From positions 1 to 37,560 of IMG/VR virus record IMGVR_UViG_3300032289_000190: a stretch of 37,560 nucleotides of DNA; one strand, given 5' to 3'. How positions within the stretch are numbered: the first letter of the stretch is position 1; every line of letters starts with the position of its first letter. The stretch comes from a virus. The notes beneath the pieces were generated by a model, which searched no databases, was not told the DNA's origin, and saw nothing but the letters and a program-made list of their open reading frames with translations. The position numbers and the translations under genes were made by a program. Positions 17,500-37,324 of the stretch are shown piece after piece.

Positions 17500-18256
17500 A
17501 CTTCTTCCTTAAATAGTTTAGAGATACTGGCATCTCATCGAAGCTCCCATTGTTAACCTCATGCAACATCCAGATACCACGCCAGTACTTGTTACCCTGA
17601 CTACCTAGATAGTCCTCATCATGCAGGTAGCAACAACCACTAAACAACCCAGTAATCTGTGAACCATCAGCACGATTGGCATAAGCTATCTGCCTATTCT
17701 GCACATGACCCATTACTGCAGACATATGCTTCTTAGATAGCAGCGCAGCGGCAGAAGTTACAGCACGCCCCATAACGCCAGAAGTAAAATAATGAGCGTA
17801 CACAACCCCATCAATGACAATAGGTTCAAGGTATGGTATAACTTCCCAACCACAATGTTCGTAGTTAAGGTCGCTGAGACCAATAGTTCCATCAAGTTTA
17901 GGGTCTCCTTCGATAGCTCTGGAAATTCTTTCTTCATGGTTTCCAAGGGTAAGCACCATTCTTGGTCTGTATTGTTTCTCTTTGTTTCTCTTTGCTCGTT
18001 CATTGTATTCCTTAATTGGTGCTAACAACATCTCCATTGCTTTGTTAGTAACATCGATGTCTGTTTTATAACGCCTGCCCTCGAAGCACTTGCGTCCTAC
18101 GTCATAGCTAGACAGGCTAGGCATATCGGCAAAGTCACCAATCTGTACGATAACATCAGGTTTCTTCTCTGCTAGATACTTACCTACCCATGTCAGGTAA
18201 CTAAGATCAACACCGTCCTTGACTTGACAGTCTGGGATTATGGCATGAACAGTCAT
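17489..18256 (-). CDS. Calcineurin-like metallophosphoesterase
   Basis: 255 residues with the metal-ligand series of the family in order: D9-x-Q11 (PDCQ, Gln replacing the usual His), G40-D41 (IVQIGDFAD), G105-N-H-E108 (LTLGNHEER), H155 (VYAHYF) and G183-H-x-Q186 (VMGHVQ). It should hydrolyse phosphoester bonds in nucleotides or nucleic acids. Phage members are often annotated as DNA-repair or phosphatase proteins, and the substrate is unknown. It starts with TAATG overlap after the gene at 18256-18573, preceded by AAGGATGC. Confidence 0.85.
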   Translation of the reverse strand: MTVHAIIPDCQVKDGVDLSYLTWVGKYLAEKKPDVIVQIGDFADMPSLSSYDVGRKCFEGRRYKTDIDVTNKAMEMLLAPIKEYNERAKRNKEKQYRPRMVLTLGNHEERISRAIEGDPKLDGTIGLSDLNYEHCGWEVIPYLEPIVIDGVVYAHYFTSGVMGRAVTSAAALLSKKHMSAVMGHVQNRQIAYANRADGSQITGLFSGCCYLHDEDYLGSQGNKYWRGIWMLHEVNNGSFDEMPVSLNYLRKKYEH

Positions 18257-20033: not shown

Positions 20034-20047
20034 TAGCTAATTATCTA
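20034..20047. repeat. TAGATA-NN-TATCTA palindrome, one-mismatch copy
   Basis: TAGCTA-AT-TATCTA, one mismatch from the family. It lies between the SSB-like gene and the 77-residue gene, and on the minus strand it directly abuts the AAAGGAAAG ribosome site. The same placement is seen for three perfect copies. Confidence 0.55.
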
Positions 20048-20714: not shown

Positions 20715-22354
20715 GATTTTCCTTTCTTGTATTCCCCATCAAGTGGGCAACGTAACTTCAACACTGTGCCTGCTTCCCTAATACTCTCTACTGCTAGAGT
20801 CCCTACCTTGTCAGCTTGATCAGCTAAACATTCTATCTGCCACTCGTCATGCACGTTAGCTACAAACTTAGCTGACAGCTTAGCCTTTCGTAGCTTGTCG
20901 TACAGTAAGACAAGAGCCTGCTTCATTACTATTGCACCAGCACTTTGAAGCAATGTGTTGAGTGCGCTGTGCTGGGAACGTATCTGTAGCTTGCGTCCAT
21001 CAAGACCCTCAAGCGTCCCTCCTTCTGATAACATTTCAACCTTTGCCCTAAGCTTTTGTAAGCTTGGAGTGTTCCGAAGAAAAGCACTCGTGAGTTCCTT
21101 GCCTTCCTTTGCTCCACCACCAACAATCGTCCCGATCTTGGCAGGTCCTGCGCCATATAGTAGGGCATAGATAAACGTCTTGGCTTGCGCCCTCGTAGCA
21201 AGTCCTGCAGCTCTCTGGTTCTTCGTGTGGACATCGGTTCCCAACTCTTGCGATCCCTCTGTGACTGTCTTGACATACTCTTGATCCTTCATATAGTGAG
21301 CAAGCATCCTAAGTTCTAGGGCGCTAGCGTCTGCGCCTACCAATAGATAGTTATCTATTACTGTCCAGCAATCCCTACACTCATGTCCCCAAGGACTACT
21401 ACTGCTAGGAACCTGAGCCATGTTAGGACTGTGGTGTGTCATACGTCCCGTGACTGCTCCGTTGGTGATGACCTTACCGTGAACCCTTCCGTCCTCAGAT
21501 ACAGCAGTAAGCCACGACTTAACCTGAGCCACCCGTTTCTGAATGAGTAGGTATTCGGCAATGAGTTTTGCTTCTGGTATATCAACTCCATCCAAGACTG
21601 ATTCATCTACTATCACTGCTCCCTTGTCAGTATGCTTAGTTGGTTTCCATCCCTTGCTCATCAGACGCTTAGCTATCTGCTGACGAGATCCGGGATTAAA
21701 TACTTCAACGTCATCCTTTAACTGCTTGCCTGTCTTATCACTAACTCGTTGGGTGATAATGGGTGGGAAAATAGTTTGGAGTTCGTGTTCAATCTCGCAA
21801 AGCCTATGCTCCCATTGTCCTACTAAACTCATTGCTTTAGGTATATCTAGTTTAAAACCATTGCGTTCCTGCTCAGCAATAATACGCTGAACCTTGTGCT
21901 CAAGTTCAATGGACTGCTCAGAGAACCCATGCAATTCTTTAGTCAAATACAAATATAACTCACCGCATATGCGTACATCTTCCTTACAGTACTCCAGCAT
22001 TTCGTCTGTCAACCCGCTGTCGAAGTTGTCGTATTCTTTTTTCTCCTTTCCCACCAGCGTGGCTAGTCTTTTTAGGCTGTGTCCGTTCTCTCTTTGAGGA
22101 TTTGATAGTCTTGACATAACCAGTGTGTCCCGAACTTGGTTCATATGAATAGTAGTATTCCAAACCCTGTTTAGTACTGGAAAGTCGAAAGCTATCCCGT
22201 TGTGAGCTACTATCAGACTGGCTTTCTGAATAAACTGGTTGAAACTTCCTGCCTCTGTCCATGCTACCACTTCCTTAGTATCTAGATTGTAAGTACAGCA
22301 ACACCAAATAGTATTGTGGCTAAGATTAGTTTCGATATCAAGTGCGATTCTCAT
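20696..22354 (-). CDS. DNA polymerase I-type (family A), T7-like
   Basis: 552 residues. A 3'-5' exonuclease domain (about 1-140) has D6-I-E8 (ALDIETN), HNGIAFD57F and YCKED126 (Exo I-III). The polymerase domain has motif A D342-A-S-A-L-E-L-R, motif B R388-x3-K392-x3-Y396 (RAQAKTFIYALLYGAG) and motif C VH502-D-E504. The residue matching E. coli Pol I position 762 is Tyr396, as in T7, a state associated with lytic phages. It is ~150 residues shorter than T7 gp5, and I see no obvious thioredoxin-binding loop. A palindrome copy lies inside the gene just before motif A. The start has no Shine-Dalgarno but a -10 box 6 bases upstream. Confidence 0.95.
   Translation of the reverse strand: MRIALDIETNLSHNTIWCCCTYNLDTKEVVAWTEAGSFNQFIQKASLIVAHNGIAFDFPVLNRVWNTTIHMNQVRDTLVMSRLSNPQRENGHSLKRLATLVGKEKKEYDNFDSGLTDEMLEYCKEDVRICGELYLYLTKELHGFSEQSIELEHKVQRIIAEQERNGFKLDIPKAMSLVGQWEHRLCEIEHELQTIFPPIITQRVSDKTGKQLKDDVEVFNPGSRQQIAKRLMSKGWKPTKHTDKGAVIVDESVLDGVDIPEAKLIAEYLLIQKRVAQVKSWLTAVSEDGRVHGKVITNGAVTGRMTHHSPNMAQVPSSSSPWGHECRDCWTVIDNYLLVGADASALELRMLAHYMKDQEYVKTVTEGSQELGTDVHTKNQRAAGLATRAQAKTFIYALLYGAGPAKIGTIVGGGAKEGKELTSAFLRNTPSLQKLRAKVEMLSEGGTLEGLDGRKLQIRSQHSALNTLLQSAGAIVMKQALVLLYDKLRKAKLSAKFVANVHDEWQIECLADQADKVGTLAVESIREAGTVLKLRCPLDGEYKKGKSWANTH
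21342..21359. repeat. TAGATA-NN-TATCTA palindrome inside DNA polymerase
   Basis: AATAGATA-GT-TATCTATT: 8-bp perfect arms around a 2-base centre. On the minus strand it encodes polymerase residues V-I-D-N-Y-L-L just before motif A. It is a perfect match to the six other full copies. Confidence 0.85.
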
Positions 22355-24186: not shown

Positions 24187-24202
24187 ATAGATAGTTATCT
24201 AT
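24187..24202. repeat. TAGATA-NN-TATCTA palindrome upstream of the Cys-rich gene
   Basis: ATAGATA-GT-TATCTAT: 7-bp perfect arms. On the minus strand it is followed at once by TTTGGAG, the ribosome site of the gene at 23940-24173. A weak promoter-like pair (TTGCAT at 24244-24239, 17 bases, TATATC at 24221-24216) lies upstream, placing the palindrome about where transcription would start. Confidence 0.85.
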
Positions 24203-25730: not shown

Positions 25731-26065
25731 ATGAATCCCTTCGCTATAATAAAGAATGCAGGTATGAATGTTACCATCTTTTTAAGGTTTGTCAAGGATA
25801 TTTTAGGGGCAATACTATTACCCTCCCTATCAACGCCTAACACTAGTGCCTTGCCACACAGTGGTTGAGAGTAGCCCTTAATCATAAAGAATTCTGGGTT
25901 GTCTTTATACAGCCCTTCATCATCAACATATAATGTATCTTCCCCGTTAAACCCTACACAGTCAAAGGTCTGACAGTCAATAAGTTTGTAGATATCCTCA
26001 TAGTTTCCTGAGTAGTCTACCTTAGTGATGCTGTGCTCATACGGGTCAATCAAATATGCTTTCAT
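25727..26065 (-). CDS. DUF3846-like early protein
   Basis: 112 residues. The opening MKAYLIDPYEHSITKVDYSG, the YEDIYKLIDCQTFDCVGF segment and DTLYVDDEGLYKDNPEFFMI, ending in QPLCGKALVLGVD, match the general layout of DUF3846-type phage proteins. The last 20 residues are unusually hydrophobic (MVTFIPAFFIIAKGFI) and could reach a membrane. A perfect palindrome copy abuts the GGAG ribosome site. Function unknown. Confidence 0.7.
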   Translation of the reverse strand: MKAYLIDPYEHSITKVDYSGNYEDIYKLIDCQTFDCVGFNGEDTLYVDDEGLYKDNPEFFMIKGYSQPLCGKALVLGVDREGNSIAPKISLTNLKKMVTFIPAFFIIAKGFI

Positions 26066-26079
26066 AGTTCGCCTTCTCC

Positions 26080-26095
26080 TTAGATAATTATCTAA
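26080..26095. repeat. TAGATA-NN-TATCTA palindrome upstream of the DUF3846-like gene
   Basis: TTAGATAATTATCTAA, a perfect 16-base palindrome. On the minus strand it runs straight into GGAGAAGG, the ribosome site of the gene at 25727-26065. It also contains the TAG stop of the gene at 26092-26334. Confidence 0.85.
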
Positions 26096-26334
26096 AACCC
26101 AATACGCTCTAGTTGTTCCTTAAGCTTGATCTGCTGAGGAGTATGCTCGATAGGAAACCACTGGTCAGCAATCTTGACATGAGAGATGTCATGTGAATAG
26201 ACAGACCCCATCTCAGTAAAGTCACCATACACAGTAGCCATGCGAGTGTTGCCCTTCATATTGTCAGCAATCTCTGCCTCCCAGCCATTGGACAGTTTGA
26301 TGCGACTGCCACGCTTTAGGTCATTAGTCTTCAT
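26092..26334 (-). CDS. Conserved hypothetical early protein
   Basis: 80 residues: MKTNDLKRGSRIKLSNGWEA, then ADNMKGNTRMATVYGDFTEM and SVYSHDISHVKIADQW. The DLKRG-x-RI-x-LSNGW-x-A-x-I-x-DN-x-KGNTR-x-A-x-VYG-x-x-T-x-x-GS-x-Y-x-HDI pattern is one I recognise from many phage genomes. It looks like an SH3-like or small beta-barrel fold. ATGA overlap with the upstream 56-residue gene. Function unknown. Confidence 0.75.
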   Translation of the reverse strand: MKTNDLKRGSRIKLSNGWEAEIADNMKGNTRMATVYGDFTEMGSVYSHDISHVKIADQWFPIEHTPQQIKLKEQLERIGF

Positions 26335-26501
26335 ACAGTCTCCCTGATAGAATACAAGTCATCACAACGAATCTTCATAACAGCATCCCGCAGTGAGCGA
26401 TACGCCACGCGAATGTCTACCTCTGAGTGCTCTGTGAAACCACCATTCTCAATCTCTTCGATTAAGTCTTGCATATGATACAGCATATCTTTTGTGTCCA
26501 T
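26331..26501 (-). CDS. Small helical protein
   Basis: A 56-residue frame starting at ATG 26501, 3 bases after the Gp88-like gene, ending in ATGA overlap with the next. It reads MDTKDMLYHMQDLIEEIENG, then GFTEHSEVDIRVAYRSLRDA and VMKIRCDDLYSIRETV. Two or three amphipathic helices. The overlapped end and the absence of a gap on either side support it as a real gene. No family recognised. Confidence 0.65.
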   Translation of the reverse strand: MDTKDMLYHMQDLIEEIENGGFTEHSEVDIRVAYRSLRDAVMKIRCDDLYSIRETV

Positions 26502-26503
26502 GA

Positions 26504-27145
26504 CTATCCCTTTATCTGAATGAGTTTAATAACCTTAGCCTTTGACTTCCCGTGGTACGGATATGCAACCACAGGAGTCATCTTATCCCAACATTGCCTA
26601 CAAGTCAAGCACTTTCCACCTTGTTTATACGCAGGACATACATAAGCCTCAGTCTTATAGTCTCTATCGGGTATGATAGTGCTAGAGTTTAGATAAGTAT
26701 CTAAAATAGACCCGTCAACATCATCGCTAGAAGCTCTGACTGTAACATTAGACAGCCCATGCATAGACCTAAGTATAGCCTGAAACTTAGGAAACTTATA
26801 CATCCTAGTGGGTAACCAGTGCTGACAATTGGGTGTCCTATTCATAACTGCATAGATCTTCTCAGCCAATTGAATATGATACATATCGCCTGAGTCAAAC
26901 CATCTAAAGAATTTCTGCTTAGATAGTGATGAAACCATACGATCTACCCAGTCTGAATTGCGCCAGTCTTGCAAATTGAAAGCCCTAACTGCTTTGACAT
27001 TAGGCATATGATACATACCTTGTCGGGCATAGCACACTTTGCAAGCAGGGACTGCTTCACCCGTGGAATCTTTAGACCCCGGACAAGTGTCCCAAGCCTG
27101 AAGACTCCACGAATAACACCCTAACTTGGATGTTCTTGATAACAT
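26504..27145 (-). CDS. Gp88-like Cys-rich protein
   Basis: 213 residues. The N-terminal part (SKLGCYSWSLQAWDTCPGSK, then VPACKVCYARQGMYHMPNV) and FFRWFDSGDMYHIQLAEKIY match the general pattern of the phage GP88 family, which has C-x-x-C-Y-A and an FR-x-x-x-SGD motif. A second Cys cluster (YVCPAYKQGGKCLTCRQCWD) lies near the end. The Cys arrangement suggests an Fe-S or zinc site. Some relatives have been likened to radical-SAM or tRNA-modification-like folds, but no activity is established to my knowledge. A palindrome copy lies inside the gene. Confidence 0.7.
   Translation of the reverse strand: MLSRTSKLGCYSWSLQAWDTCPGSKDSTGEAVPACKVCYARQGMYHMPNVKAVRAFNLQDWRNSDWVDRMVSSLSKQKFFRWFDSGDMYHIQLAEKIYAVMNRTPNCQHWLPTRMYKFPKFQAILRSMHGLSNVTVRASSDDVDGSILDTYLNSSTIIPDRDYKTEAYVCPAYKQGGKCLTCRQCWDKMTPVVAYPYHGKSKAKVIKLIQIKG
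26688..26705. repeat. TAGATA-NN-TATCTA palindrome inside the Gp88-like gene
   Basis: TTTAGATA-AG-TATCTAAA, 8-bp perfect arms. On the coding strand it encodes I-L-D-T-Y-L-N. Confidence 0.85.
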
Positions 27146-27146
27146 A

Positions 27147-27383
27147 TTAGACAGACTCCGTCTTTAAGTGGATGAGGTGGTCAGCACACACGAAACGCAC
27201 TGACCAATTCTTGACACGAAACACTTGACCATCAGATGCACGCTGAATCTTAGCATAGAATGGGTTAGTAGACAACACCTTACCATTTAACTTGTCACCT
27301 TGACGATACACAGTCAGGAACCTGCCACCACGATTTTTTAACACACGATTGAAACGGATTGAGATGCGGACTAGATGAAACAT
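27147..27383 (-). CDS. Small basic early protein
   Basis: 78 residues from the ATG at 27383, chosen because AAGGAGAG lies 6 bases upstream. A longer frame to 27428 would run through the palindrome. It reads MFHLVRISIRFNRVLKNRGG, then FLTVYRQGDKLNGKVLSTNP and IQRASDGQVFRVKNWSVRFV. It is basic and beta-rich, like a small nucleic-acid-binding barrel, which is inference only. It is controlled by its own promoter (27446-27474) with a palindrome between promoter and ribosome site. Confidence 0.65.
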   Translation of the reverse strand: MFHLVRISIRFNRVLKNRGGRFLTVYRQGDKLNGKVLSTNPFYAKIQRASDGQVFRVKNWSVRFVCADHLIHLKTESV

Positions 27384-27398
27384 TTTTAACTCTCCTTT

Positions 27399-27412
27399 TA
27401 GATAACTATCTA
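27399..27412. repeat. TAGATA-NN-TATCTA palindrome upstream of the 78-residue gene
   Basis: TAGATA-AC-TATCTA. On the minus strand it is followed directly by AAAAGGAGAG, the ribosome site. About 27 bases downstream of the expected start of transcription from the promoter at 27446-27474. Confidence 0.85.
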
Positions 27413-27445
27413 TTGACAAAACACACAATTACTAACCACAACCAC

Positions 27446-27474
27446 ACTGTAACACAACACAACCGATTTGTCAA
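27446..27474 (-). promoter_or_regulatory. Sigma-70-like promoter after the terminator
   Basis: On the minus strand: TTGACA (27474-27469), 17-base spacer, TACAGT (27451-27446). Start expected near 27439. It begins a new transcription unit right behind the terminator at 27479-27512 and feeds the 78-residue gene, the Gp88-like gene and the following small genes. Confidence 0.6.
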
Positions 27475-27478
27475 GCTT

Positions 27479-27512
27479 AAAAAAAGGGAGAGGGATTTCT
27501 CCCTCGCCTCCC
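27479..27512 (-). terminator. Rho-independent terminator after the 167-residue gene
   Basis: On the minus strand, directly after the TAG stop: GAGGGA-GAAA-TCCCTC, a perfect 6-bp GC-rich stem with a GAAA tetraloop and extra outer pairing (GGGA with TCCC), followed by seven T. It closes a one-gene transcription unit. Confidence 0.85.
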
Positions 27513-28015
27513 TAGATTGTTGCGGGTTCCACCTGCTCTTCGACTACTTCGCTGGCGATTACCATCAGGCGCTCGGCTAGATCGAACCGCCCGTGGTGGT
27601 GCAAGTGCTGAGCTATCCGATCCAATTCTGCCGAGATATCGCCCAAGCTTAGCAGGGTTTCTTCTTTTACTGAATCGTCCTGCCCGTCTTCGTCTTCGGG
27701 TTTTTCCTTCTTGTTTAGATCTCTAGCGTACTTCGCCAACAATTGCACCGATTTCGTGGTGTAATCGTAAAGCTTGGTTCGTTTGTCTAATTCCTTCCAA
27801 TTCTTTACAATCGCCTTGACTCTAGACCTGTAATTCTTGGCTTCCTTCTCATCCTCGCCTTGCGAGACTCGGTAATTTAGATAACTATCTAAAAACTGAT
27901 CCATCTGGTCATCCGAAGTGATACTAATGAGACAATCCTTAATCAGTGCCACAGCTTTAGTGCCTGCGCCAGTCTCAATCTTGGCGAGTTCTTTACCGCT
28001 ATTCTCAAAATTCAT
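27512..28015 (-). CDS. Unknown acidic protein in its own transcription unit; candidate regulator
   Basis: 167 residues, GGAGG 7 bases before the ATG. It is mostly helical: SDDQMDQFLDSYLNYRVSQG, then EAKNYRSRVKAIVKNWKELD, a charged linker (KKEKPEDEDGQDDSVKEE) and a C-terminal helix pair with a His patch (IAQHLHHHGRFDLAERLMVI). No known family or clear helix-turn-helix. It is the first gene of the leftward side and has its own promoter, a palindrome at +4 to +19, a second palindrome inside the gene and a strong terminator. That arrangement fits an autoregulated early protein that might bind the palindromes. The regulator role is an inference. Confidence 0.65.
   Translation of the reverse strand: MNFENSGKELAKIETGAGTKAVALIKDCLISITSDDQMDQFLDSYLNYRVSQGEDEKEAKNYRSRVKAIVKNWKELDKRTKLYDYTTKSVQLLAKYARDLNKKEKPEDEDGQDDSVKEETLLSLGDISAELDRIAQHLHHHGRFDLAERLMVIASEVVEEQVEPATI
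27876..27893. repeat. TAGATA-NN-TATCTA palindrome inside the 167-residue gene
   Basis: TTTAGATA-AC-TATCTAAA, 8-bp perfect arms. On the coding strand it encodes F-L-D-S-Y-L-N. Confidence 0.85.
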
Positions 28016-28044
28016 GGTGAATCCTCCGATTAGTTAGTTAATGA

Positions 28045-28060
28045 ATAGATAACTATCTAT
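28045..28060. repeat. TAGATA-NN-TATCTA palindrome at the promoter of the 167-residue gene
   Basis: ATAGATA-AC-TATCTAT, 7-bp perfect arms. It begins 10 bases after the predicted -10 box, so it covers the expected start of transcription region, a classical operator position. Confidence 0.85.
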
Positions 28061-28070
28061 CCATAGGCGT

Positions 28071-28098
28071 AGAATAGCACGAAAACCTGATCTGTCTA
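28071..28098 (-). promoter_or_regulatory. Promoter of the 167-residue gene
   Basis: On the minus strand: TAGACA (28098-28093), 16-base spacer, TATTCT (28076-28071) with TGC before it (extended -10). Start near 28064, adjacent to the palindrome at 28045-28060. Weaker match than the other promoters listed. Confidence 0.5.
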
Positions 28099-28137
28099 CC
28101 TAGGGATAACCCTAATGTATTTTTATACAGTACCCTG

Positions 28138-28276
28138 TGTTGTTTTTTAGAGACACTTTGTAGGGTGCATCATAGTCTCTTTCTATCGCCTGCTCAGCCT
28201 CGATAGTCTCTAACTATTGGCACAGATCTTGCATAGCAAGAAGCATGCCAGCAAAACTGTTGTATTTTAGAGACAC
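28138..28276. repeat. AGAGAC box cluster with 19-base direct repeat
   Basis: TGTTGT-T/A-TTTTAGAGACAC occurs at 28138-28156 and 28258-28276 with one mismatch. The inverted core GTCTCT occurs at 28175-28180 and as GTCTCTAA at 28206-28213. Four boxes in alternating orientation within 140 bases suggest a protein-binding array. Confidence 0.6.
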
Positions 28277-28369
28277 GGGGGAGGGGGTATTTCACATTAT
28301 GGAGTTGCGGAGTACCCTACAGCACACAACAGAAGGCAAAATAGCAATTAAATAGTGGGAAAACTGCCC

Positions 28370-28509
28370 TAAATAGTACAAAATAGAACAGTAAAAAGAC
28401 TATAGAAATCAAATACTTAGGAATTTACAGGACTTTGTAAGTAAAGGAGGTAGAATCTGTACACTATAAAGCTGCTAATCTGTACACTTTAGCTTCTAAA
28501 TAGTACAAA
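28370..28509. repeat. Paired direct repeats before the rightward promoter
   Basis: TAAATAGTACAAA at 28370-28382 and 28497-28509; AATCTGTACACT at 28454-28465 and 28477-28488 (23 bases apart). They lie just upstream of the -35 box of the rightward promoter, where an activator or origin-binding protein could sit. Confidence 0.6.
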
Positions 28510-28513
28510 GTAC

Positions 28514-28542
28514 TTGACTTTTTAGAAAAAGTATGCTATAAT
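28514..28542 (+). promoter_or_regulatory. Rightward promoter P1 for packaging genes
   Basis: TTGACT (28514-28519), 17-base spacer, TATAAT (28537-28542) with TG-C before it. It shares AAGTACTTGAC at the -35 and AAAAGTATG-N-TATAATAAAT at the -10 with the promoter at 33256-33284, so the two should be controlled alike. Confidence 0.8.
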
Positions 28543-28560
28543 AAATGTATTAAGAACAAA

Positions 28561-28621
28561 CTATGTAGAAACTAAATACAATAATCATAATAATAATTCT
28601 TAATAATTTAAAACTACATAG
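28561..28621 (+). promoter_or_regulatory. Possible long-range stem in the P1 leader
   Basis: CTATGTAG (28561-28568) and CTACATAG (28614-28621) are perfect inverted repeats with an AT-rich 45-base loop. The second arm ends 5 bases before the AAGGAG of the small terminase gene, so folding could affect its translation. It also contains a TAGATA half-site. Confidence 0.4.
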
Positions 28622-28642
28622 ATAATAAGGAGAAACACAAAA

Positions 28643-29053
28643 GTGTCCTTAGAAACTCAAGGTGTTACCCTGTCTCCCCCTAAAAAAAGAGGCAGACCCA
28701 GAAAAGCTGATGTCGAATCCAAGAAAAAGCGAGGCGTGGTAGGACGTCCTCCCGGCGAAGCAGCAAGAATAAAAGAATTTTATGCAAGACTTCTGTCCAC
28801 CAGCGGAGAAAAGGTCATAGAGACTGTGCTCCGCAAGGCTATGGACGATGATGACAAAGATCAGGTGGCTTGTCTTAAGATGTGTATCGATAGGTTACTG
28901 CCTATTAGTCATTTTGAAAAGCAGGGACAGGGCAGGTCTAACGCAATACAGGTACAGATTGTTACCACAGGTACTCCTCAGATAGCTGCAAGAGAAACTG
29001 AAGAGATAGGATACGAAGTTATAGACGTAGAGGACTCTGGTGGCAAATCTTAG
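28643..29053 (+). CDS. Putative terminase small subunit
   Basis: 136 residues, GTG start with AAGGAG 10 bases upstream. The N-terminus carries two AT-hook-like motifs (KKRGRPRKA and VGRPPGEAA) suited to minor-groove DNA binding. The central helices (IKEFYARLLSTSGEKVIETV, KDQVACLKMCIDRLLP) resemble small terminase oligomerisation cores. It lies directly before the large terminase with a 14-base overlap, the usual order. It would select phage DNA for packaging. The call rests mainly on position and DNA-binding motifs. Confidence 0.75.
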   Translation: MSLETQGVTLSPPKKRGRPRKADVESKKKRGVVGRPPGEAARIKEFYARLLSTSGEKVIETVLRKAMDDDDKDQVACLKMCIDRLLPISHFEKQGQGRSNAIQVQIVTTGTPQIAARETEEIGYEVIDVEDSGGKS

Positions 29054-30302
29054 AGTCGAACTACATCCTAAACAGACGGAAGTATTTAATGATAATCACC
29101 GTTTTAAAGTGGTTGCTGCAGGACGAAGATTTGGAAAGTCTCGTCTCGCTGCTTGGACCCTCATCATTGAGGCATTAAAATCTAAAGAGAAGGATGTCTT
29201 CTATGTTGCTCCAACTTTTCAGCAAGCTAAAGACATTATGTGGACGGTTCTTAAGGAACTTGGACATGAAGTTATCAAAACTGTCCACGAGAATACGGCG
29301 GTAATAACTTTAGTAAATGATAGAAAGATTTACCTTAAAGGATCTGATCGTCCTGATACTATGCGCGGTGTTGGTCTTGCTTACGTTGTAATTGACGAGT
29401 ATGCGGACATGAAGCCGCAAGTGTTTGAGCAGATCCTTAGACCAGCACTGTCAGATGTAAAGGGCGGCGCACTGTTCATTGGAACCCCAAAGGGCAGGAA
29501 TCACTTCTACGAGTTGTACCAGATGGCCCAAAAGGATGAAGATGAAGATTGGTCCTCGTTTCACTTTACTTCTTTTGATAACCCTCTACTCGATCCTAAA
29601 GAGATTGAGGCTGCAAAGAAGTCAATGTCTTCCTTCAGTTTTAGACAGGAATACCTTGCTAGTTTCGAGGCCGCCTCGTCAGAGTTATTTAAGGAAGAAT
29701 GGATACACTATGTTGATAGCGATGATACTCCTAGTGACGGTCAGTATTACATCGCTGTTGATTTGGCTGGCTTTGAAGATGTAAGCAAGCAGGCTAGTAA
29801 CAAAAAGAAGCATCTAGATGAAACCGCAATTGCCGTAGTCAAGGTTACTCTAGATGGATGGTTTGTAGATACTATAGTGTTCGGACGATGGGATATCAAA
29901 GAAACCGCCAACAAAATATTAGAAACAGCAAGAAGTTACGATGTGCGGCTAGTAGGTATAGAGCGGGGAATGGCACGGAACGCCGTACTCCCGTACCTAC
30001 AAGACTTGATGAAGAAGAAGTCGTTTTTCATCTCAGTGACAGAACTGACACATGGCAACAAGAAGAAGACGGACCGAATAGTATGGGCTTTACAGGGTCG
30101 CTTCGAGCATGGAAGGATTAAGCTAGTTAGAGGCGAGTGGACTAAGCAGTTCGTGGATCAGCTCCTTAACTTCCCTAACAGCGCAGTACATGATGACTTA
30201 ATTGATGCCTTAGCCTATATCGATCAGATTGGTATCACAGAGTTTACAGATATGATGGAAGATGACGAGTACGAACCTTTAGACACAGTATCAGGATACT
30301 AA
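29040..30302 (+). CDS. terL: Terminase large subunit
   Basis: 420 residues, GTG start inside the end of the small terminase. ATPase domain: Walker A G28-RRFGKS34, adenine-binding KQTEVF near residue 11, Walker B VVIDEY (116-121), coupling motif GTP (148-150). Nuclease domain (RNase H-like): D241 (YIAVDLAG), E308 (GIERG) and D385/D386 with D389 (HDDLIDALAY). It translocates DNA into the prohead and cuts concatemers. Its length is typical of short podoviral TerL. The stop is followed within 2 bases by the next gene. Confidence 0.93.
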   Translation: MANLRVELHPKQTEVFNDNHRFKVVAAGRRFGKSRLAAWTLIIEALKSKEKDVFYVAPTFQQAKDIMWTVLKELGHEVIKTVHENTAVITLVNDRKIYLKGSDRPDTMRGVGLAYVVIDEYADMKPQVFEQILRPALSDVKGGALFIGTPKGRNHFYELYQMAQKDEDEDWSSFHFTSFDNPLLDPKEIEAAKKSMSSFSFRQEYLASFEAASSELFKEEWIHYVDSDDTPSDGQYYIAVDLAGFEDVSKQASNKKKHLDETAIAVVKVTLDGWFVDTIVFGRWDIKETANKILETARSYDVRLVGIERGMARNAVLPYLQDLMKKKSFFISVTELTHGNKKKTDRIVWALQGRFEHGRIKLVRGEWTKQFVDQLLNFPNSAVHDDLIDALAYIDQIGITEFTDMMEDDEYEPLDTVSGY

Positions 30303-30303
30303 C

Positions 30304-31263
30304 ATGGCTATAGCCCGCTTATTCAAAGGTTTATTAGAAATACCAGAGGAATTTGTTTCTGCCTCCAGTAAAGGGGGAAGGTCTCTATTTGACGAGAAAC
30401 CACCAAAGCTTACCCGTCCTGAGATTATCGGAGGGCAGAAAGCTTTAATGAACTACCTTGGTTCTGCCTCTGATGAAGAGACTGAGCTTATGGAAAGTAG
30501 TATGAAACTAGCAAAAGAGATGGCTAAACGTGGTGCTAGTTTTGAAGACCAAGTAACTAGAACTGGTATGGGTTATGGACCAGATGATAAGTTAAGGTTT
30601 GAGATTCCTGATACAGACGCAAGACTTACAATACCTGTAGATATGCTTGAAGAAGGTGAGACTTATCGAGTAAAAGATTTGTTAAGCCACCCAAAGCTAT
30701 ATGAGTTTTATCCAGACTTAGCTAATAGAGAAGTCAGGATGCTGAATCAACCAGACAAACCTTTATCATTTGGTGCGTATAACCTAGACAGTAAAGTAAT
30801 TGATCTTAATATTGGTTCAAATCCATTTGTTAAAAAAGACCCAGTAGCTGTTATTTCTGGCTTGCTTCATGAGTCACAACACTATGCCCAGCAAATAGAA
30901 AACTTCCTACAGGGAACAAATAAAAATAAATTCTTAAAGAAGTATACTGACAAGTCTTGGGATAAAGCTTCTAAGTCTGATAAAGAAAAAGCTACTCGTG
31001 ATTATTTAAAAGCATATGGTGAGGCTGAAGCACGCAACGTACAACTACGATTTGAAGATCCTTTCTTTGCACGTACTTCTGGTTCAAAAGATAAAACTAA
31101 AGGTAAAGTATTTCCAACAACAATGGGACAAGACAAAGATACAATGGCAGCATTTAACCGTCCTCTAGGGCCAACTGAATTTACCGACACAGAAGGCGGC
31201 GCTGTTGATGCAAGACTTGACTATGTTAATCCGTTTCCTAGTACAGTAGAGGATATGCAATGA
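30304..31263 (+). CDS. Zincin-like metallopeptidase domain protein (polyvalent-protein LPD type)
   Basis: 319 residues, between large terminase and portal. A HExxH motif H189-E-S-Q-H193 (VISGLLHESQHYAQQIENF) is followed by G239-EAEARN (a Glu-rich third-ligand region). Upstream lies TGMGYGPDDKLRFEIPDTDA, SHPKLYEFYPDL and a strand pair FGAYNLDSKVIDLNI. This order matches the zincin-like large polyvalent-protein-associated domains (LPD) of phage proteins, normally one domain within a giant protein. Here it stands alone. Possible roles are capsid maturation protease, cleavage of a scaffold or portal, or an effector ejected with the DNA. The peptidase activity is inferred from motif only. It overlaps the portal gene by 4 bases. 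Confidence 0.7.
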   Translation: MAIARLFKGLLEIPEEFVSASSKGGRSLFDEKPPKLTRPEIIGGQKALMNYLGSASDEETELMESSMKLAKEMAKRGASFEDQVTRTGMGYGPDDKLRFEIPDTDARLTIPVDMLEEGETYRVKDLLSHPKLYEFYPDLANREVRMLNQPDKPLSFGAYNLDSKVIDLNIGSNPFVKKDPVAVISGLLHESQHYAQQIENFLQGTNKNKFLKKYTDKSWDKASKSDKEKATRDYLKAYGEAEARNVQLRFEDPFFARTSGSKDKTKGKVFPTTMGQDKDTMAAFNRPLGPTEFTDTEGGAVDARLDYVNPFPSTVEDMQ

Positions 31264-33251
31264 GTGACTTTCAAGAAGACCCAGTATCTGAATCAGATAA
31301 AGAGTTAGTAGCCTTTATTATTGATCATTGTGATCGGTGGAAAGAACACCGTGATAATAACTATCAGGCTAAGTGGGATGAGTATGAGCGCCTCTACTAT
31401 GGCGTATGGTCTGATGAGGACAAGACTCGTGACTCAGAGCGCAGCAGACTTGTATCACCTGCTATCCGTCAGGCAGTGGAGAACAAAACCTCAGAGATCA
31501 TTGAGGCTACTACAGGGCGTGGTGAGTTCTTTGAGATGGAAGACGATGCTGCTGACCAGCAAGAGATGGATATCGAGATGGTTAAGCGTCAGCTTCATGA
31601 TGATCTAAAGAAAGATAAGGTAGACAAAACTTGGGCAGAAGTAAACCGTAACGCTGAAATCTTTGGCCTTGGTGTAGCTGAAGTTCAAATTAAATCTACA
31701 GTTGAATTACAGCCAGCGATGCAACCAATGCCTAATGGGACTGGTGCGGCTATTGGAGTTATGGAAGTTGATCGTGTATCTGTTCCTGTCAAGTCGGTAC
31801 ATCCTCGTAACTTTGTTTGGGACCCTAACTCTGAGACTGTGGACGATGCATTGGGTGTAGCTGTCGAGGAGTACACCAGCCTCTTTAAAGTAGTTAAAGG
31901 GATTGAAGATGGGATCTACAGAAAAGTTAATATTGGTCCTGAGTTTAGTGATGCTGATCTCATCCCAAATCAACTGGACTCACTCTACCAAGAAGATAAG
32001 GTACGAGTCCTTCGTTACTACGGGTTAGTTCCTCGTGAGTACCTAGAGGATCTAGAGAATGAAGGTGGTGAGGTAGCTGACCTGTTCCCAGAGGACAGCG
32101 ATGCAGACAAATACGCAGACATGGTGGAGGCTGTAGTTGTTATCGCTAACAACCAGTACCTGCTTAAAGCAGAAGCTAACCCATACATGATGAAAGACCG
32201 TCCTATTGTGACCTATGTACCTGAAAAGGTATCAGGTAGGTTAGTAGGCATGGGAACCGTGCAAAAAGGCTACAATATGCAGAAAGCTATTGATGCCCAG
32301 CTCCGTAGTCATCTGGACTCTCTAGCACTGACTACGGCTCCTATGATGGCAGCAGACGCTACAAGGCTTCCTCGTGGTGTGTCTTACAAGGTACAGCCCG
32401 GAAAGACTCTGCTTACCAATGGTAATCCTAACGAGATCCTATTCCCGTTTAAGTTTGGATCTACTGACGCAGGCAATATCTCCACGGCTAAAGAGTTTGA
32501 GACTATGCTTTTGCAGGCTACAGGAACTCTAGATAGTCAGGCGATGACCCGCTCTGTGGCCCAAGGCGATGCTGGTGGAGCTTCTATGTCCCTTGCTATG
32601 TCTTCTATCATTAAGAAGAATAAGCAAGCACTCATGAACTTCCAAGATGACTTCTTGATCCCTCTGATTAAGAAGGTAGCATATCGCTATATGCAGTTTG
32701 ATCCAGATCGTTATCCATCTCAAGACTTTAGATTCACACCAGCCTCCACCCTTGGCATGGTAGCTAGGGAGTATGAGCAGCAACAGTTTATTGGGCTACT
32801 CCAAACCCTTGGTCCTAATAGCCCTGTACTTCCCTTGATCTTAAAAGGTATCATTAAAGGCTCAAGTCTGTCCAATAAGGAAGAGCTTGCAGCAGCCTTA
32901 GATCAAATGAACCAACCTAACCCAGAAGCTCAGGCTATGCAGCAGGCTCAGATGCAGGCCCAGATCCAACTGGTTCAAGCTCAGATTAACGAACTTAACT
33001 CTAGGGCAGCAGAGTCTCAAGCCGATGCTCAAGAGGCAATGGCTAAGGCACAAAAGACTATGGTTGAGGCTCAACTAATGCCAGAAGAACTCCGGGCTAA
33101 GGTTATTCAGTCAGTGTCCGCTAACTTAGATGGTTCAAGCCAAGGGGAGTTTGAGCGCCGTGCTAAGGTAGCTGAGCTTATCTTGAAGGAACGGGAGATT
33201 GAGACTAAGGAAAACATTGTCGAAGCTCAAATGAATAGAAAAGTTCAATAA
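31260..33251 (+). CDS. Portal protein
   Basis: 663 residues, ATGA overlap with the upstream gene. Characteristic pieces are YQAKWDEYERLYYGVW near the start, SRLVSPAIRQAVENKTSEII, VKSVHPRNFVWDP, and a long C-terminal Gln/Ala coiled coil (AQAMQQAQMQAQIQLVQAQI). The build fits portal proteins of podoviruses of P22/T7-like size. It forms the dodecameric vertex ring to which the tail tubular proteins bind. It is followed by a promoter placed in the short gap before the next gene. Confidence 0.85.
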   Translation: MSDFQEDPVSESDKELVAFIIDHCDRWKEHRDNNYQAKWDEYERLYYGVWSDEDKTRDSERSRLVSPAIRQAVENKTSEIIEATTGRGEFFEMEDDAADQQEMDIEMVKRQLHDDLKKDKVDKTWAEVNRNAEIFGLGVAEVQIKSTVELQPAMQPMPNGTGAAIGVMEVDRVSVPVKSVHPRNFVWDPNSETVDDALGVAVEEYTSLFKVVKGIEDGIYRKVNIGPEFSDADLIPNQLDSLYQEDKVRVLRYYGLVPREYLEDLENEGGEVADLFPEDSDADKYADMVEAVVVIANNQYLLKAEANPYMMKDRPIVTYVPEKVSGRLVGMGTVQKGYNMQKAIDAQLRSHLDSLALTTAPMMAADATRLPRGVSYKVQPGKTLLTNGNPNEILFPFKFGSTDAGNISTAKEFETMLLQATGTLDSQAMTRSVAQGDAGGASMSLAMSSIIKKNKQALMNFQDDFLIPLIKKVAYRYMQFDPDRYPSQDFRFTPASTLGMVAREYEQQQFIGLLQTLGPNSPVLPLILKGIIKGSSLSNKEELAAALDQMNQPNPEAQAMQQAQMQAQIQLVQAQINELNSRAAESQADAQEAMAKAQKTMVEAQLMPEELRAKVIQSVSANLDGSSQGEFERRAKVAELILKEREIETKENIVEAQMNRKVQ

Positions 33252-33255
33252 GTAC

Positions 33256-33284
33256 TTGACAAATTAAGAAAAGTATGATATAAT
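33256..33284 (+). promoter_or_regulatory. Rightward promoter P2 for capsid genes
   Basis: TTGACA (33256-33261), 17-base spacer, TATAAT (33279-33284) with TG-A before it. Nearly identical to P1 at 28514-28542 from AAGTACTTGAC through TATAATAAAT. Start expected near 33291, right at a hairpin leader. Confidence 0.8.
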
Positions 33285-33292
33285 AAATTATA

Positions 33293-33310
33293 TGTTGTAG
33301 AAATACAACA
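33293..33310 (+). promoter_or_regulatory. 5' leader hairpin with GNRA tetraloop
   Basis: TGTTGTA-GAAA-TACAACA: perfect 7-bp stem, GAAA loop, located at the very start of the predicted P2 transcript. This could stabilise the capsid mRNA or be a processing site. It precedes a CCTAGATAGGAG ribosome region. Confidence 0.65.
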
Positions 33311-33331
33311 CAGTCCTAGATAGGAGAAACT

Positions 33332-33574
33332 GTGGATAAAGACATTCAAGAATACTATGAGGCTAGGTTTGACATGATGGCCTCCAAAGGATGGAAAGAT
33401 TTTATTGAGGATACCCAGAAAATGCTGGATGCCTATAATAAGATCGAAAGATTGACTGGTGTTGAGGACTTATACTACGCCAAAGGACAGTTAGATATCC
33501 TAAACTGGGTAATAAACCTTAAGCAAACTTCGGAAGAAGCCTATAGGGAGTTAACAGATGAAACGGATATTTGA
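33332..33574 (+). CDS. Small conserved protein after portal
   Basis: 80 residues, GTG start with TAGGAGAAACT before it. It is helical: EYYEARFDMMASKGWKDFIE, then NKIERLTGVEDLYYAKGQLD and LNWVINLKQTSEEAY. Proteins of this type with an F-D-x-M-x-S-x-G-W-K-D-F pattern occur next to portals in other podoviruses and may help in capsid assembly. No activity is known to me. It overlaps the next gene by 17 bases. Confidence 0.7.
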   Translation: MDKDIQEYYEARFDMMASKGWKDFIEDTQKMLDAYNKIERLTGVEDLYYAKGQLDILNWVINLKQTSEEAYRELTDETDI

Positions 33575-33791
33575 GTTCAGGTGTGCTAAAGACCACCTCA
33601 CCGAAAAATTGGTCGATGATGAGGTACGCTCTATAGAGTGTCCGCATTGTCGCAATGAAGCTTCTCGTATTATCTCGTCACCCCGCATCAGTCTGGAGGG
33701 CATCACAGGTGCGTTTCCTTCAGCACATGAAGCGTGGGCAAGAAAGCACGAAGAAGCAACTAGAGTCGCTTACAAGAAACAGCAAGCCTGA
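33558..33791 (+). CDS. Small zinc-ribbon-like protein (FmdB-like)
   Basis: 77 residues. N-terminal MKRIFEFRCAKDHLTEKLVD and IECPHCRNEASRIIS give a C9...C28-x2-C31 site with H13 as possible fourth ligand, like small FmdB/zinc-ribbon proteins with a reduced first knuckle. The second half (FPSAHEAWARKHEEATRVAY) is a charged helix. Such proteins sit between portal and scaffold in other T7-like phages. Role unknown. Confidence 0.7.
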   Translation: MKRIFEFRCAKDHLTEKLVDDEVRSIECPHCRNEASRIISSPRISLEGITGAFPSAHEAWARKHEEATRVAYKKQQA

Positions 33792-33843
33792 TTCCAAGTG
33801 ACATTTTAAAGTTCCTAGAATCCGTTGTGGACAGGAGGATAAT

Positions 33844-34659
33844 GTGGCAGCATCTTTTACCGAAGCGCAAGAAGAGTTATTTGAAGCAAGTGATATTACT
33901 CAGCAAGAGACTCAGCAAGTAGCTGAAGAACCTCAGACTGAAACCGTACAGGAAGCAGTTCCTGAAGAGGATAACCTTCCAACCAAGTATAAGGGCAAGA
34001 GTCTTGATGAAATTATCAAGATGCACCAAGAGGCTGAGAAGCTTATTGGTAGACAAGCTCAAGAAGTTGGCGAAGTACGAAAGCTTGCGGATGAACTAAT
34101 CAAGCGACAACTCGACAATAAGAAAGAAGTTGAGGTCACAAAAGAAGACGAGATCGACATCTTTGAAGATCCAAAGAAGTATGTTCGTCAGGCGGTAGAG
34201 AATCATCCTGCAATTAAAGAAGCCAAAGAACAAACGGCTGAAATTAAAAGGGTGCAAACATTAAACAGGCTTAAGACAGAGTTTCCTGACTTTGAGTCTA
34301 CTGTAGGAGACCCGGCATTTGCTGAGTGGATAAAAGCCTCTCCAGTTCGTTTGCGTTTATACGCAGCGGCTGACGCAAATCTGGATTATGATTCTGCAGC
34401 AGAACTTCTTAGTAATTGGAATTATGTTAAACCTAAAGCGGTAGCTCCTTCAGCTTTTGCTTCTGCGCCAGAGATTAAAGCGGCACAGAAAGCAGCAGTT
34501 AAATCAGCTACTGTAGATGTTGGCTCTAACACTGGTGCTACTTCTGCTAAGGTCTATCGAAGAGCGGATCTAATCCGTTTACAACTGGAAGACCCAGATC
34601 GTTATTACCAGCTACAAGATGAAATTATGGCTGCATACGCTCAGGGTCGAGTTAAATAA
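33844..34659 (+). CDS. Scaffolding protein
   Basis: 271 residues, GTG start with GGAGG 5 bases before it. It is acidic and helical, with a low-complexity N-terminus (EAQEELFEASDITQQETQQV), a coiled-coil middle (RQAQEVGEVRKLADELIKRQ) and a basic C-terminal end (VYRRADLIRLQLEDPDRYYQ, then AAYAQGRVK), as expected for a scaffold that binds coat through its C-terminus. Position just before the major capsid gene agrees. It should leave the prohead before or during packaging. Confidence 0.8.
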   Translation: MAASFTEAQEELFEASDITQQETQQVAEEPQTETVQEAVPEEDNLPTKYKGKSLDEIIKMHQEAEKLIGRQAQEVGEVRKLADELIKRQLDNKKEVEVTKEDEIDIFEDPKKYVRQAVENHPAIKEAKEQTAEIKRVQTLNRLKTEFPDFESTVGDPAFAEWIKASPVRLRLYAAADANLDYDSAAELLSNWNYVKPKAVAPSAFASAPEIKAAQKAAVKSATVDVGSNTGATSAKVYRRADLIRLQLEDPDRYYQLQDEIMAAYAQGRVK

Positions 34660-34683
34660 ACTTAATCATTTAGGAGATTTAAA

Positions 34684-35628
34684 ATGGCTCTTGGTACTGA
34701 TCACGTAACAAAAACAACAGCGGATAAATTTATCCCTGAGATTTGGTCTGATGAAATCATCGCTGCTTACAAAAAGAACTTGGTTGCTGCTAACCTGTTC
34801 TCGAAAATGTCTTTCAAAGGCAAGAAGGGTGATGTCCTTCACATTCCTAAGCCCACCCGTGGTGACGCTGCGCTCAAAGCTGCATCCAGTCAGGTAACTC
34901 TGATTGCTGCAACTGAGACTGAAGTTCTTGTTAACATTAACAAGCACTATGAGTACAGCCGCTTGATCGAAGATATTGTCGAAGTTCAGGCTCTCTCTTC
35001 GCTGCGCCGTTTCTACACGGACGATGCTGGTTATGCACTAGCTAAGCGTGTTGACATTGACTTGGTTCAGCTTGGTCGTGGTGTTAATGGTGCTACCATT
35101 GGTACGAATGACTACGCAACTGCTGCTGCAAGCACGAACGCTTTCATTGGTTCGACTGGCGCAACGGTGTACAACTCCAGCACGTCTAACGCTGCTGCTC
35201 TTGGCGAGGCAGGTATTCGCCGTTCAATCCAGCGTCTTGATGACCAAGACGTTCCGATGACGGATCGTTTCCTGATTGTTCCTCCTTCAAGCCGCAACAC
35301 GTTGATGAGCATTCAGCGTTTCACAGAGCAGGCTTTTGTTGGCGAAGCTGGTTCCGCTAACACAATCCGTAACGGTCAAATCGGTGACGTGTTTGGTGTT
35401 AAAGTATTTGTAAGCACCAACGCTGACACTGCTGCTGGTGGTTCTGGCACAGACCGTATCTGCTTGTTAGCACACAAAGATGCATTTGTGTTAGCTGAGC
35501 AGATGGGTGTTCGCTCACAGACTCAGTACAAACAAGAGTATCTTGGTACTCTGTTTACCAGCGATATGCTGTACGGTGTTGCTGAGTTGCGTGATGGCTC
35601 TGCTGTTGCTCTCGCAGTTCCTGCCTAA
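34684..35628 (+). CDS. Major capsid protein
   Basis: 314 residues, AGGAG before the ATG. N-terminal TADKFIPEIWSDEIIAAYKK, then ANLFSKMSFKGKKGDVLHIP, LVNINKHYEYSRLIEDIVEV and near the end YKQEYLGTLFTSDMLYGVAE are standard elements of HK97-fold coat proteins of podoviruses. GC content is higher and codon use is more biased than in its neighbours, as usual for a highly expressed gene. A strong terminator follows. Directly preceded by the scaffold gene. Confidence 0.92.
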   Translation: MALGTDHVTKTTADKFIPEIWSDEIIAAYKKNLVAANLFSKMSFKGKKGDVLHIPKPTRGDAALKAASSQVTLIAATETEVLVNINKHYEYSRLIEDIVEVQALSSLRRFYTDDAGYALAKRVDIDLVQLGRGVNGATIGTNDYATAAASTNAFIGSTGATVYNSSTSNAAALGEAGIRRSIQRLDDQDVPMTDRFLIVPPSSRNTLMSIQRFTEQAFVGEAGSANTIRNGQIGDVFGVKVFVSTNADTAAGGSGTDRICLLAHKDAFVLAEQMGVRSQTQYKQEYLGTLFTSDMLYGVAELRDGSAVALAVPA

Positions 35629-35648
35629 GGCTTTATAAGCTAGTGGCT

Positions 35649-35682
35649 CTCCTCAGCCTCACAAGGGCTGGGGAGTTTTCTT
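35649..35682 (+). terminator. Rho-independent terminator after major capsid gene
   Basis: CTCCTCAGCC (35649-35658), 7-base loop, GGCTGGGGAG (35666-35675), a 10-bp stem with one G-T pair, followed by TTTTCTT. It limits the capsid transcript from the tail-fibre genes. Confidence 0.9.
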
Positions 35683-35722
35683 AAGCAGATACTGTCTGTT
35701 TAAGCAAACTAACGGAGATTAA

Positions 35723-36901: not shown

Positions 36902-36910
36902 GGACAAAAC

Positions 36911-37324
36911 ATGGCAAATAGATACCCTCTAGTTCTTAACGGAACAACTGTACAAGAACTTCAGTCTGGTGATGACTTAATTGGTTTGACTAACTGGGGC
37001 GCACTAGATACAGATCAAACATGGTCTGGCGCACAGCGTGGCACAGTCACTACGGACAATGATGGTTCATTCGACATGAATGTAACTAATAACTTTAAGT
37101 GTACACCCACAGGTAGTTTTACCCTGACCTTTACTAACATCACTGCTGGTCAGTCTGGGTTTATCTTACTAGTCAACGGATCTAACTACACAGTCTCTGC
37201 CCATGCTAACACCAAGGTAGCCACTGGTGCTTTGACAGCTATATCAGCCACTGGTACATACCTGCTTAGTTACTTCTCTGACGGTACTAACGTATTTGTA
37301 GTCAACTCAGGAGCACTAGCTTGA
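36911..37324 (+). CDS. Putative tail-fibre associated beta protein
   Basis: 137 residues. Begins MANRYPLVLNGTTVQELQSG, which is common in phage fibre-associated proteins, then beta-rich (DMNVTNNFKCTPTGSFTLTF, SGFILLVNGSNYTVSAHANT). No catalytic motif. It probably caps or extends the fibre encoded upstream. The last base of its Ala codon and the TGA stop overlap the TTG start of the next gene. Confidence 0.65.
   Translation: MANRYPLVLNGTTVQELQSGDDLIGLTNWGALDTDQTWSGAQRGTVTTDNDGSFDMNVTNNFKCTPTGSFTLTFTNITAGQSGFILLVNGSNYTVSAHANTKVATGALTAISATGTYLLSYFSDGTNVFVVNSGALA

Follow-up and report, generated by a model that had tools for sequence, protein, structure and literature searches.

The Locus and Its Genomic Setting

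The window, that is, the whole stretch of DNA analysed here, is a single virus record of 37,560 bases. Its rightward genes, which correspond to packaging, head, tail, internal virion and lysis functions (TerL, portal, capsid and endolysin among them), flank a leftward arm carrying the replication genes, namely those for a primase-helicase, an ssDNA-binding protein, an exonuclease, a ribonucleotide reductase and a polymerase. The polymerase is 49% identical to that of Pelagibacter phage HTVC103P, the best among the matches listed, and no near DNA match to positions 26000-37560 was found among phage records. Among the 39 genes (of 49) covered by family scans, no integrase or partition gene was recognised; one of the ten genes outside these scans is the polymerase, which was identified separately. 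The early arm also includes a glycosyltransferase family 9-like gene (16212-17216, minus strand), present in contig G012 and not found in G001 and G002. In G002 (46,360 bases), packaging-gene matches of differing identity lie near both ends, which suggests that a genome of roughly 38 kb was assembled redundantly or as a chimera.

The first leftward gene past the control region encodes a protein of 167 amino acids (Table 1). An initial annotation of the locus had described this gene as a stand-alone, possibly autoregulated unit, with a promoter, a palindrome over the transcription-start region, another within the coding sequence and, directly after the stop codon, a terminator, and all these elements are present. 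The promoter is weak when compared with the consensus (9/12), although -35/-10-like hexamers could be recognised by eye at its position in 11 of 11 aligned sequences, the window included. The first palindrome would cover about +5 to +18 relative to the start inferred from the -10. The terminator hairpin is readable by eye in relatives, with stem letters partly changed and a poorer T run in L010-L012. Since the gene has its own promoter and terminator, and the next gene a promoter of its own, it looks like a single-gene transcription unit. In this respect the earlier description stands, but it proved too narrow in another: because the palindromic site recurs across about 8 kb of the early arm, the 167-aa gene is better viewed as the head of a regulon.

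Table 1. Window positions of the 167-aa gene, its putative transcription signals, neighbouring elements and the palindromic sites.
Feature	Position	Strand	Basis or remark
Separate conserved palindrome, TAGGG-N4-CCCTA	28101..28114		Just upstream of the -35
Promoter of the 167-aa gene, TAGACA-16-TATTCT	28071..28098	-	Motif match; TG before the -10
Site 1, sense TAGATAGTTATCTA	28046..28059		Just past the predicted transcription start of the 167-aa gene
167-aa gene (P0001), proposed regulator	27512..28015	-	ATG start
Site 2	27878..27891		Within the 167-aa gene, codons L-D-S-Y-L
Terminator-like hairpin, then T run	27484..27505	-	Directly after the 167-aa stop
Second leftward promoter, TTGACA-17-TACAGT	27446..27474	-	Motif match and alignment; TG before the -10
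Site 3	27399..27412		Leader of the 78-aa gene
78-aa gene	27147..27383	-	Downstream of site 3; start moved to ATG
Site 4	26690..26703		Within the GP88-like gene (26504-27145)
Site 5	26081..26094		Between the 80-aa and DUF3846 genes; abuts the ribosome-binding site
Site 6	24188..24201		Upstream of the 81-aa gene
Site 7	21344..21357		Within the DNA polymerase gene, directly ahead of motif A
Site 8, imperfect (TAGCTA variant)	20034..20047		Between the ssDNA-binding and 77-aa genes
Site 9, weak candidate, TAGATACTTACCTA	18173..18186		Metallophosphatase gene

Other repeated elements lie in the vicinity. Upstream of the promoter there is a very conserved block (28101-28133) that reads ACTGTATAAAAATACATTAGGG-N4-CCCTA; six array-bearing sequences were searched for the palindrome TAGGG-N4-CCCTA and have one copy apiece. 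The stretch near 28115-28133 is reminiscent of a LexA box. The control region (28138-28290) contains the direct repeats GTGTCTCTAAAA-ACAACA and AGAGACTATC, partly kept in relatives, and an imperfect palindrome, AGAC-RGANTCY-GTCT, is found twice in the early arm, 950 bases apart (26198-26213 and 27148-27163).

The 167-aa Protein

Homologues of the 167-aa protein are 53-99% identical. Searches of PHROGs, Pfam, NCBIfam and PDB sequences, with the protein or with alignments, gave no significant match to a known family; no homologue was found in 50,697 phage records or in a scan of GTDB genomes, and no report of the protein or of the palindromic site was found in the open-licence literature. The protein is predicted to be all-helical, but confidence in the two AlphaFold models is low, the mean pLDDT being 68 for the full-length protein and 69 for residues 1-106. 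With these low-confidence models, Foldseek returned no match at E 0.001 and VIA-align nothing above Z 5.8, TetR-family chains appearing at background level only (1sgm, E 1.9; NemR, Z 3.3). The whole protein is acidic (25 K/R, 34 D/E), whereas residues 57-103 are basic (15 K/R vs 5 D/E) and include many invariant columns, which makes this segment a candidate DNA-binding surface; a conserved C-terminal hairpin is a candidate dimer contact.

Weak matches to λ Int with phmmer and hhalign, including PDB profile matches at E 0.44-0.99, raised the possibility of a SAM-like integrase core-binding domain, and a TerL control was near zero. However, when 69 chosen λ and P22 proteins were ranked with hhalign, λ Int came 1/69 and the held-out P22 Int 42/69, and the resemblance is not relied upon here.

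A Dispersed Palindromic Site in the Early Arm

The palindrome TAGATA-NN-TATCTA is present in seven exact copies in the window, all in the leftward early arm. The expectation is about 0.007 copies per sequence, as judged from 150 length-matched order-1 Markov sequences that gave one match in total, and a reversed control pattern has no copy in the window. Five of the exact copies (sites 3 to 7) are additional to the two reported in the initial annotation, and two copies with one mismatch were also found (sites 8 and 9). Site 8 is exact in G001, G002, L014, L094 and L066, and site 9 may be a coding coincidence. The long genomes G001 and G002 have eight exact sites each, and across these two and the window 23 of the 23 exact sites fall in the early arm. 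Their places are largely equivalent in the three genomes, comprising the leaders of the 167-aa, 78-aa, DUF3846, 81-aa and 77-aa genes and intragenic positions in the 167-aa, GP88-like and polymerase genes. A counterpart of site 1, exact or variant, lies within about 120 nt upstream of the gene in 14 of 17 testable homologues; L015, L386 and L389 have no site within 120 nt upstream of the 167-aa start.

In the window, the sites are 168 to about 2,900 bases apart and only sites 1 and 3 stand behind a promoter match, the stronger leftward promoter matches (20527 and 24544) lying away from sites. Of 53 unique sites, 23 have GT and 18 have AC as the two central bases of the sense strand, near-equal use of the kind that would follow if the dyad is read on DNA. 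The same holds for the half-sites: one-sided TAGCTA/TATCTA pairing is tolerated (site 8 of the window, L098, L010 and L012), and L005 bears the symmetric TAGCTAATTAGCTA. Beyond the palindrome, pairing of the flanks modestly exceeds expectation at the first two positions (29/45 vs 21.9 and 24/45 vs 16.8) and does not at the third (9 vs 11.0). Sites with a three-base spacer (N3) occur in L015, L387-L390 and L392.

Selection on the Sites as DNA

The codon position of site 2 is kept in 17 of 18 homologues, several of which are near-copies (16 exact and one with a one-base change), L389 being the one whose 167-aa gene has no intragenic site. Among 11 sequences with identity down to 64%, the sole identical run of at least 10 nt in the gene is one of 16 nt at the site. 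Moreover, a single codon is used in four of the five site codons, as compared with 9 of the gene's 77 invariant degenerate columns; the hypergeometric value is 4.4e-4, with no correction for shared descent. In the GP88-like gene, the position of site 4 is empty in L012 and L015, both of which have a site in the GP88 leader; L015 carries an additional site elsewhere inside the gene.

The polymerase provides a further case. At site 7 the window encodes VIDNYLLVGA where relatives have [VAT][DP][ED]GK-L[VIL]G, and site-bearing polymerases read CWTVIDNYLLVGADAS (19 fetched loci, duplicates included). Residues of the DEGK-, PEGK- or EKGY-like type are found instead in the array-bearing L014, L094 and L012, in close phages devoid of the array and in HTVC103P. 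The palindrome took the place of five polymerase codons with the length unchanged. In the 77-aa leader of G009 and G011, which have no 167-aa protein, the element is cleanly missing between the stop codon and the ribosome-binding site; the start of the 77-aa gene in G009 is nearly identical to that of the window despite the missing element. Selection thus acts on the DNA of the sites.

Co-Occurrence of the 167-aa Gene and the Sites

For the co-occurrence count, 277 viral loci were merged into 218 distinct ones, leaving out fragments of the window (L001-L004), repeats of G001/G002 (L023-L027) and loci from bacterial genomes (L226-L344), as well as L373; TerL relatives had been fetched without regard to the 167-aa gene (best 80 of 526). 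Sites conforming to TAG[AC]TA-N2/3-TA[TG]CTA were found in all 16 distinct contigs with the 167-aa gene (2-10 each) and in none of the 17 contigs that span the locus and lack it, with the proviso that the contigs are related and come from the matches listed, so that these counts are neither independent nor exhaustive. The minus class was defined by the presence of TerS plus one early gene, several of its members reaching just 1-2 kb into the early arm and three (L191, L208 and L218) being distant, with TerL 62-68% identical. Three distinct contigs with sites and no gene (L062, L392 and L094) fall short of spanning the locus and were placed in neither class. Additionally, 11 whole records of TerL relatives, with loci from which the 167-aa gene is missing, have no exact site. 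In the gene-less phages examined, no substitute palindrome with 6-base arms was repeated three or more times.

The coupling, strict in the contigs examined, does not track terminase descent. Some phages devoid of both gene and sites have terminases 96-99% identical, the TerL of the window being 99% identical to that of one of them (L147). In a TerL tree of 25 rows the plus and minus classes interleave, with at least two changes forced by well-supported branches and four by parsimony.

A second set, selected by neither the 167-aa gene nor the site, came from a scan with the 80-aa gene, for which 32 loci were newly fetched. Nine of these carry the 167-aa gene and all nine have sites (3-10 each), adding five new contigs (L386-L390) whose proteins are 53-65% identical. 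Three others (L380, L384 and L385) span the locus and possess the 80-aa and 78-aa genes, the 167-aa protein and the sites being missing; L374, L377, L379, L382 and L392, which have sites and no gene, start within or beyond the GP88-like gene and so do not reach the locus.

These comparisons allowed other genes to be discarded as determinants of the sites. The 80-aa and 78-aa genes both occur without sites, the DUF3846 and 56-aa genes are missing from the site-bearing L386-L390, TerS, primase and polymerase are common to both classes, and the remaining listed early-arm genes were likewise ruled out by co-occurrence. Several late genes, also present in G001 and G002 and missing from G012, the one long minus contig compared, stay candidates on this test, and the same is partly true of the late gene for a 319-aa protein. 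Wherever a contig with the 167-aa gene was seen to extend that far, the 319-aa gene is there, and it is missing from 9 of 11 portal-reaching minus contigs; a homologue is present without sites in L159 and L160, which are short contigs. The view that the 167-aa gene and the sites form one module is well supported by sequence comparison. The suggestion of the initial annotation that the gene codes for an early regulator, and that its product is the foremost candidate for binding the palindromes, is supported by the gene/site coupling (16/16 vs 0/17), a test that the other early-arm genes fail.

The 319-aa gene (30304-31263, plus strand) has an LPD23 match, and the HExxH motif of its product is kept in the window and in 12 compared loci (31-82% identical). 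The protein may act as a peptidase of the virion or as an antirepressor.

Proposed Mechanism and Alternative Explanations

Taken together, the data make it reasonably probable that the 167-aa protein is an early autoregulatory DNA-binding regulator, with operators at promoters and stoperator-like sites at promoterless places; that this protein is the one binding the sites is, as a separate claim, quite likely. In the model that we favour, the protein would bind, probably as a dimer, the dyad TAG[A/C]TA-N2(or N3)-TA[T/G]CTA, the N3-spaced sites implying that such a dimer needs to be flexible. Binding near or downstream of the start would cut initiation or promoter escape at two promoters, that of the 167-aa gene itself and the one behind its terminator. 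At the remaining sites, which have no promoter match and lie at gene junctions close to ribosome-binding sites or inside the GP88-like and polymerase genes, the likely action would be the halting or slowing down of the host RNA polymerase, in the manner of mycobacteriophage stoperators. The expected outcome is a brief early burst of transcription that is shut down as the 167-aa protein accumulates. We infer binding by this protein, its dimerisation, repression over activation, roadblocking and the time course, with repression plus roadblocking as the most probable mechanism.

The sites might alternatively act as RNA, with a hairpin UAGAU-ANNU-AUCUA near ribosome-binding sites being bound by the 167-aa protein or an RNase and controlling translation or mRNA processing. 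Many leader sites do end 0-6 nt before a GGAG-like ribosome-binding motif, those in the leader of the 167-aa gene being an exception (16-18 nt or more); each of four single strands examined is able to fold (-1.9 to -7.2 kcal/mol), and N3 spacers would merely enlarge a loop. However, the use of both GT and AC centres means that the orientation of the sites is not kept, the one-sided TAGCTA/TATCTA changes break an RNA stem while obeying the DNA half-site rule TAG[A/C]TA, the listed intragenic copies have no adjacent gene start, and there is no Rfam match in 26000-29200 at the gathering threshold, all of which leaves this explanation with a low probability. It is also unlikely that another protein, either a host regulator or the product of another phage gene, binds the sites and that the 167-aa gene is only linked to them. 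Such a binder would agree with the fact that no DNA-binding fold could be assigned to the 167-aa protein, with the almost equally good co-occurrence of the 319-aa gene and with the comparison of some late genes with one minus contig only. Yet the distribution of the 80-aa, 78-aa, DUF3846 and 56-aa genes, of TerS, polymerase and primase, and of the 319-aa homologues in the short contigs L159 and L160 speaks against these genes, and a host factor leaves unexplained why sites are absent wherever the 167-aa gene is absent.

Even if the 167-aa protein is the binder, it could activate or antiterminate early transcription. In favour of this, the sites recur along the early arm, close behind promoters and beside gene starts, an arrangement that loading sites of an elongation factor could show. 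We regard this as improbable: phages without the protein and the sites retain the early-arm replication genes, so that an activator is not required there, the 167-aa gene ends in a terminator and the gene behind it is preceded by a separate promoter, and site 1 overlaps the initially transcribed region, which is the position of a repressor. Finally, a function in DNA replication, looping, segregation or packaging instead of transcription seems very remote. Although an oligomer could bridge dispersed dyads and the sites are in the arm of the replication genes, in the three long genomes they are confined to transcribed early genes, two of them occupy promoter leaders and several gene junctions, and their spacing of 168 to about 2,900 bases is unlike that of clustered origin iterons.

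Comparison with Known Systems

The arrangement that we propose, repression by the 167-aa protein from operators and promoterless sites, is closest in layout to that of Cluster A mycobacteriophages such as L5 and TipsytheTRex, whose repressor is described as having sites at promoters, in its own upstream region and at many promoterless places in short intergenic spaces (PMC9283540, PMC6550527). Here too, one short site is repeated at promoters and promoterless places (seven exact copies, two of them behind promoter matches). The stoperators of these phages are 13-bp asymmetric sequences oriented with transcription and read by a helix-turn-helix (HTH) monomer (PMC9283540, PMC6550527), whereas the present sites are palindromic dyads, sometimes intragenic and with no kept orientation. 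In addition, the 167-aa protein has no HTH match, although the low-confidence models may hide a distant HTH, and no integrase was recognised among the 39 of 49 genes scanned.

Dispersion of a repeated element through a phage genome is also reported for SPbeta, where the regulator MrpR binds SPBRE repeats (PMC10516654). MrpR is described there as a protein of over 300 residues with a tyrosine-recombinase fold (PMC10516654). The proposed regulator shares with it the dispersed element, but its weak likeness to λ Int was not reproduced with P22 Int.

At the level of the recognised letters, a further comparison is with RptR of E. coli defence islands, an all-helical autorepressor encoded first in its operon (PMC12255303). 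RptR recognises TAGCTA, with a C/A redundancy that predicts TAGATA, TATCTA and TATATA and not TAGGTA, and the agreement with the half-sites TAG[A/C]TA is striking. RptR is a 79-aa protein with a four-helix dimer fold and invariant Glu58 and Lys61 in helix 4, and needs two sites arranged as 9-bp direct repeats (PMC12255303). In contrast, the present protein has 167 residues, the hexamers form inverted pairs 8 or 9 bp apart, and Glu58 and Lys61 have no evident counterpart, no TE-x-SK-like element being visible by eye in the conserved block. No RptR entry was found among sequence matches up to E 10 (the PDB set searched may be without 9R2Z), the RptR fold is not among the listed fold matches of the low-confidence 167-aa models, and a search for RptR through its repeat in genomes gave none by residue pattern among the matches listed. 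Triple TAGCTA repeats with a 9-bp period were seen in bacterial genomes (L232, L234, L253, L256, L274, L336 and L340), just preceding antitoxin genes named by eye as Phd/YefM-like, so the hexamer may serve more than one family of regulators.

The logic of the proposed circuit recalls Cro of phages λ and P22, the first early gene product, which shuts off its own early promoters. P22 cro is annotated as a Cro-type early turn-off, and the 167-aa gene is likewise first in its early arm and is proposed to shut its own early promoter. Nevertheless, Cro is an HTH protein of temperate phages that acts on few operators, all at promoters, and the sites described here are dispersed. We file the system as a variant of stoperator-like control outside the L5, MrpR and RptR families.

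Implications

A more far-reaching proposal would be that the 167-aa protein represents a novel repressor family governing a palindromic stoperator regulon, a module gained and lost by lytic-looking podoviruses, with operators selected into the polymerase gene. Taken as a whole we consider this doubtful. If true, it would allow for a repressed carrier state or for superinfection immunity without integration, and the 319-aa late protein could serve as an antirepressor protease, in the way that ImmA acts on ImmR.

With the reading adopted here, namely early repression by the 167-aa protein, an unknown reading frame becomes a regulator whose predicted binding site can be put to the test. This concerns a group of phages for which 50,697 phage records offer no close match to either the late half or the regulator. 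Phages in which no integrase is recognised would join actinobacteriophages and SPbeta among those with stoperator-like control, here exerted by a protein of no known family. The existence of close phages with and without the module, their terminases being up to 99% identical, allows asking what such control is for. In turn, the operator that overwrites polymerase codons would be an unusually clear example of regulatory DNA imposing itself on a protein sequence.
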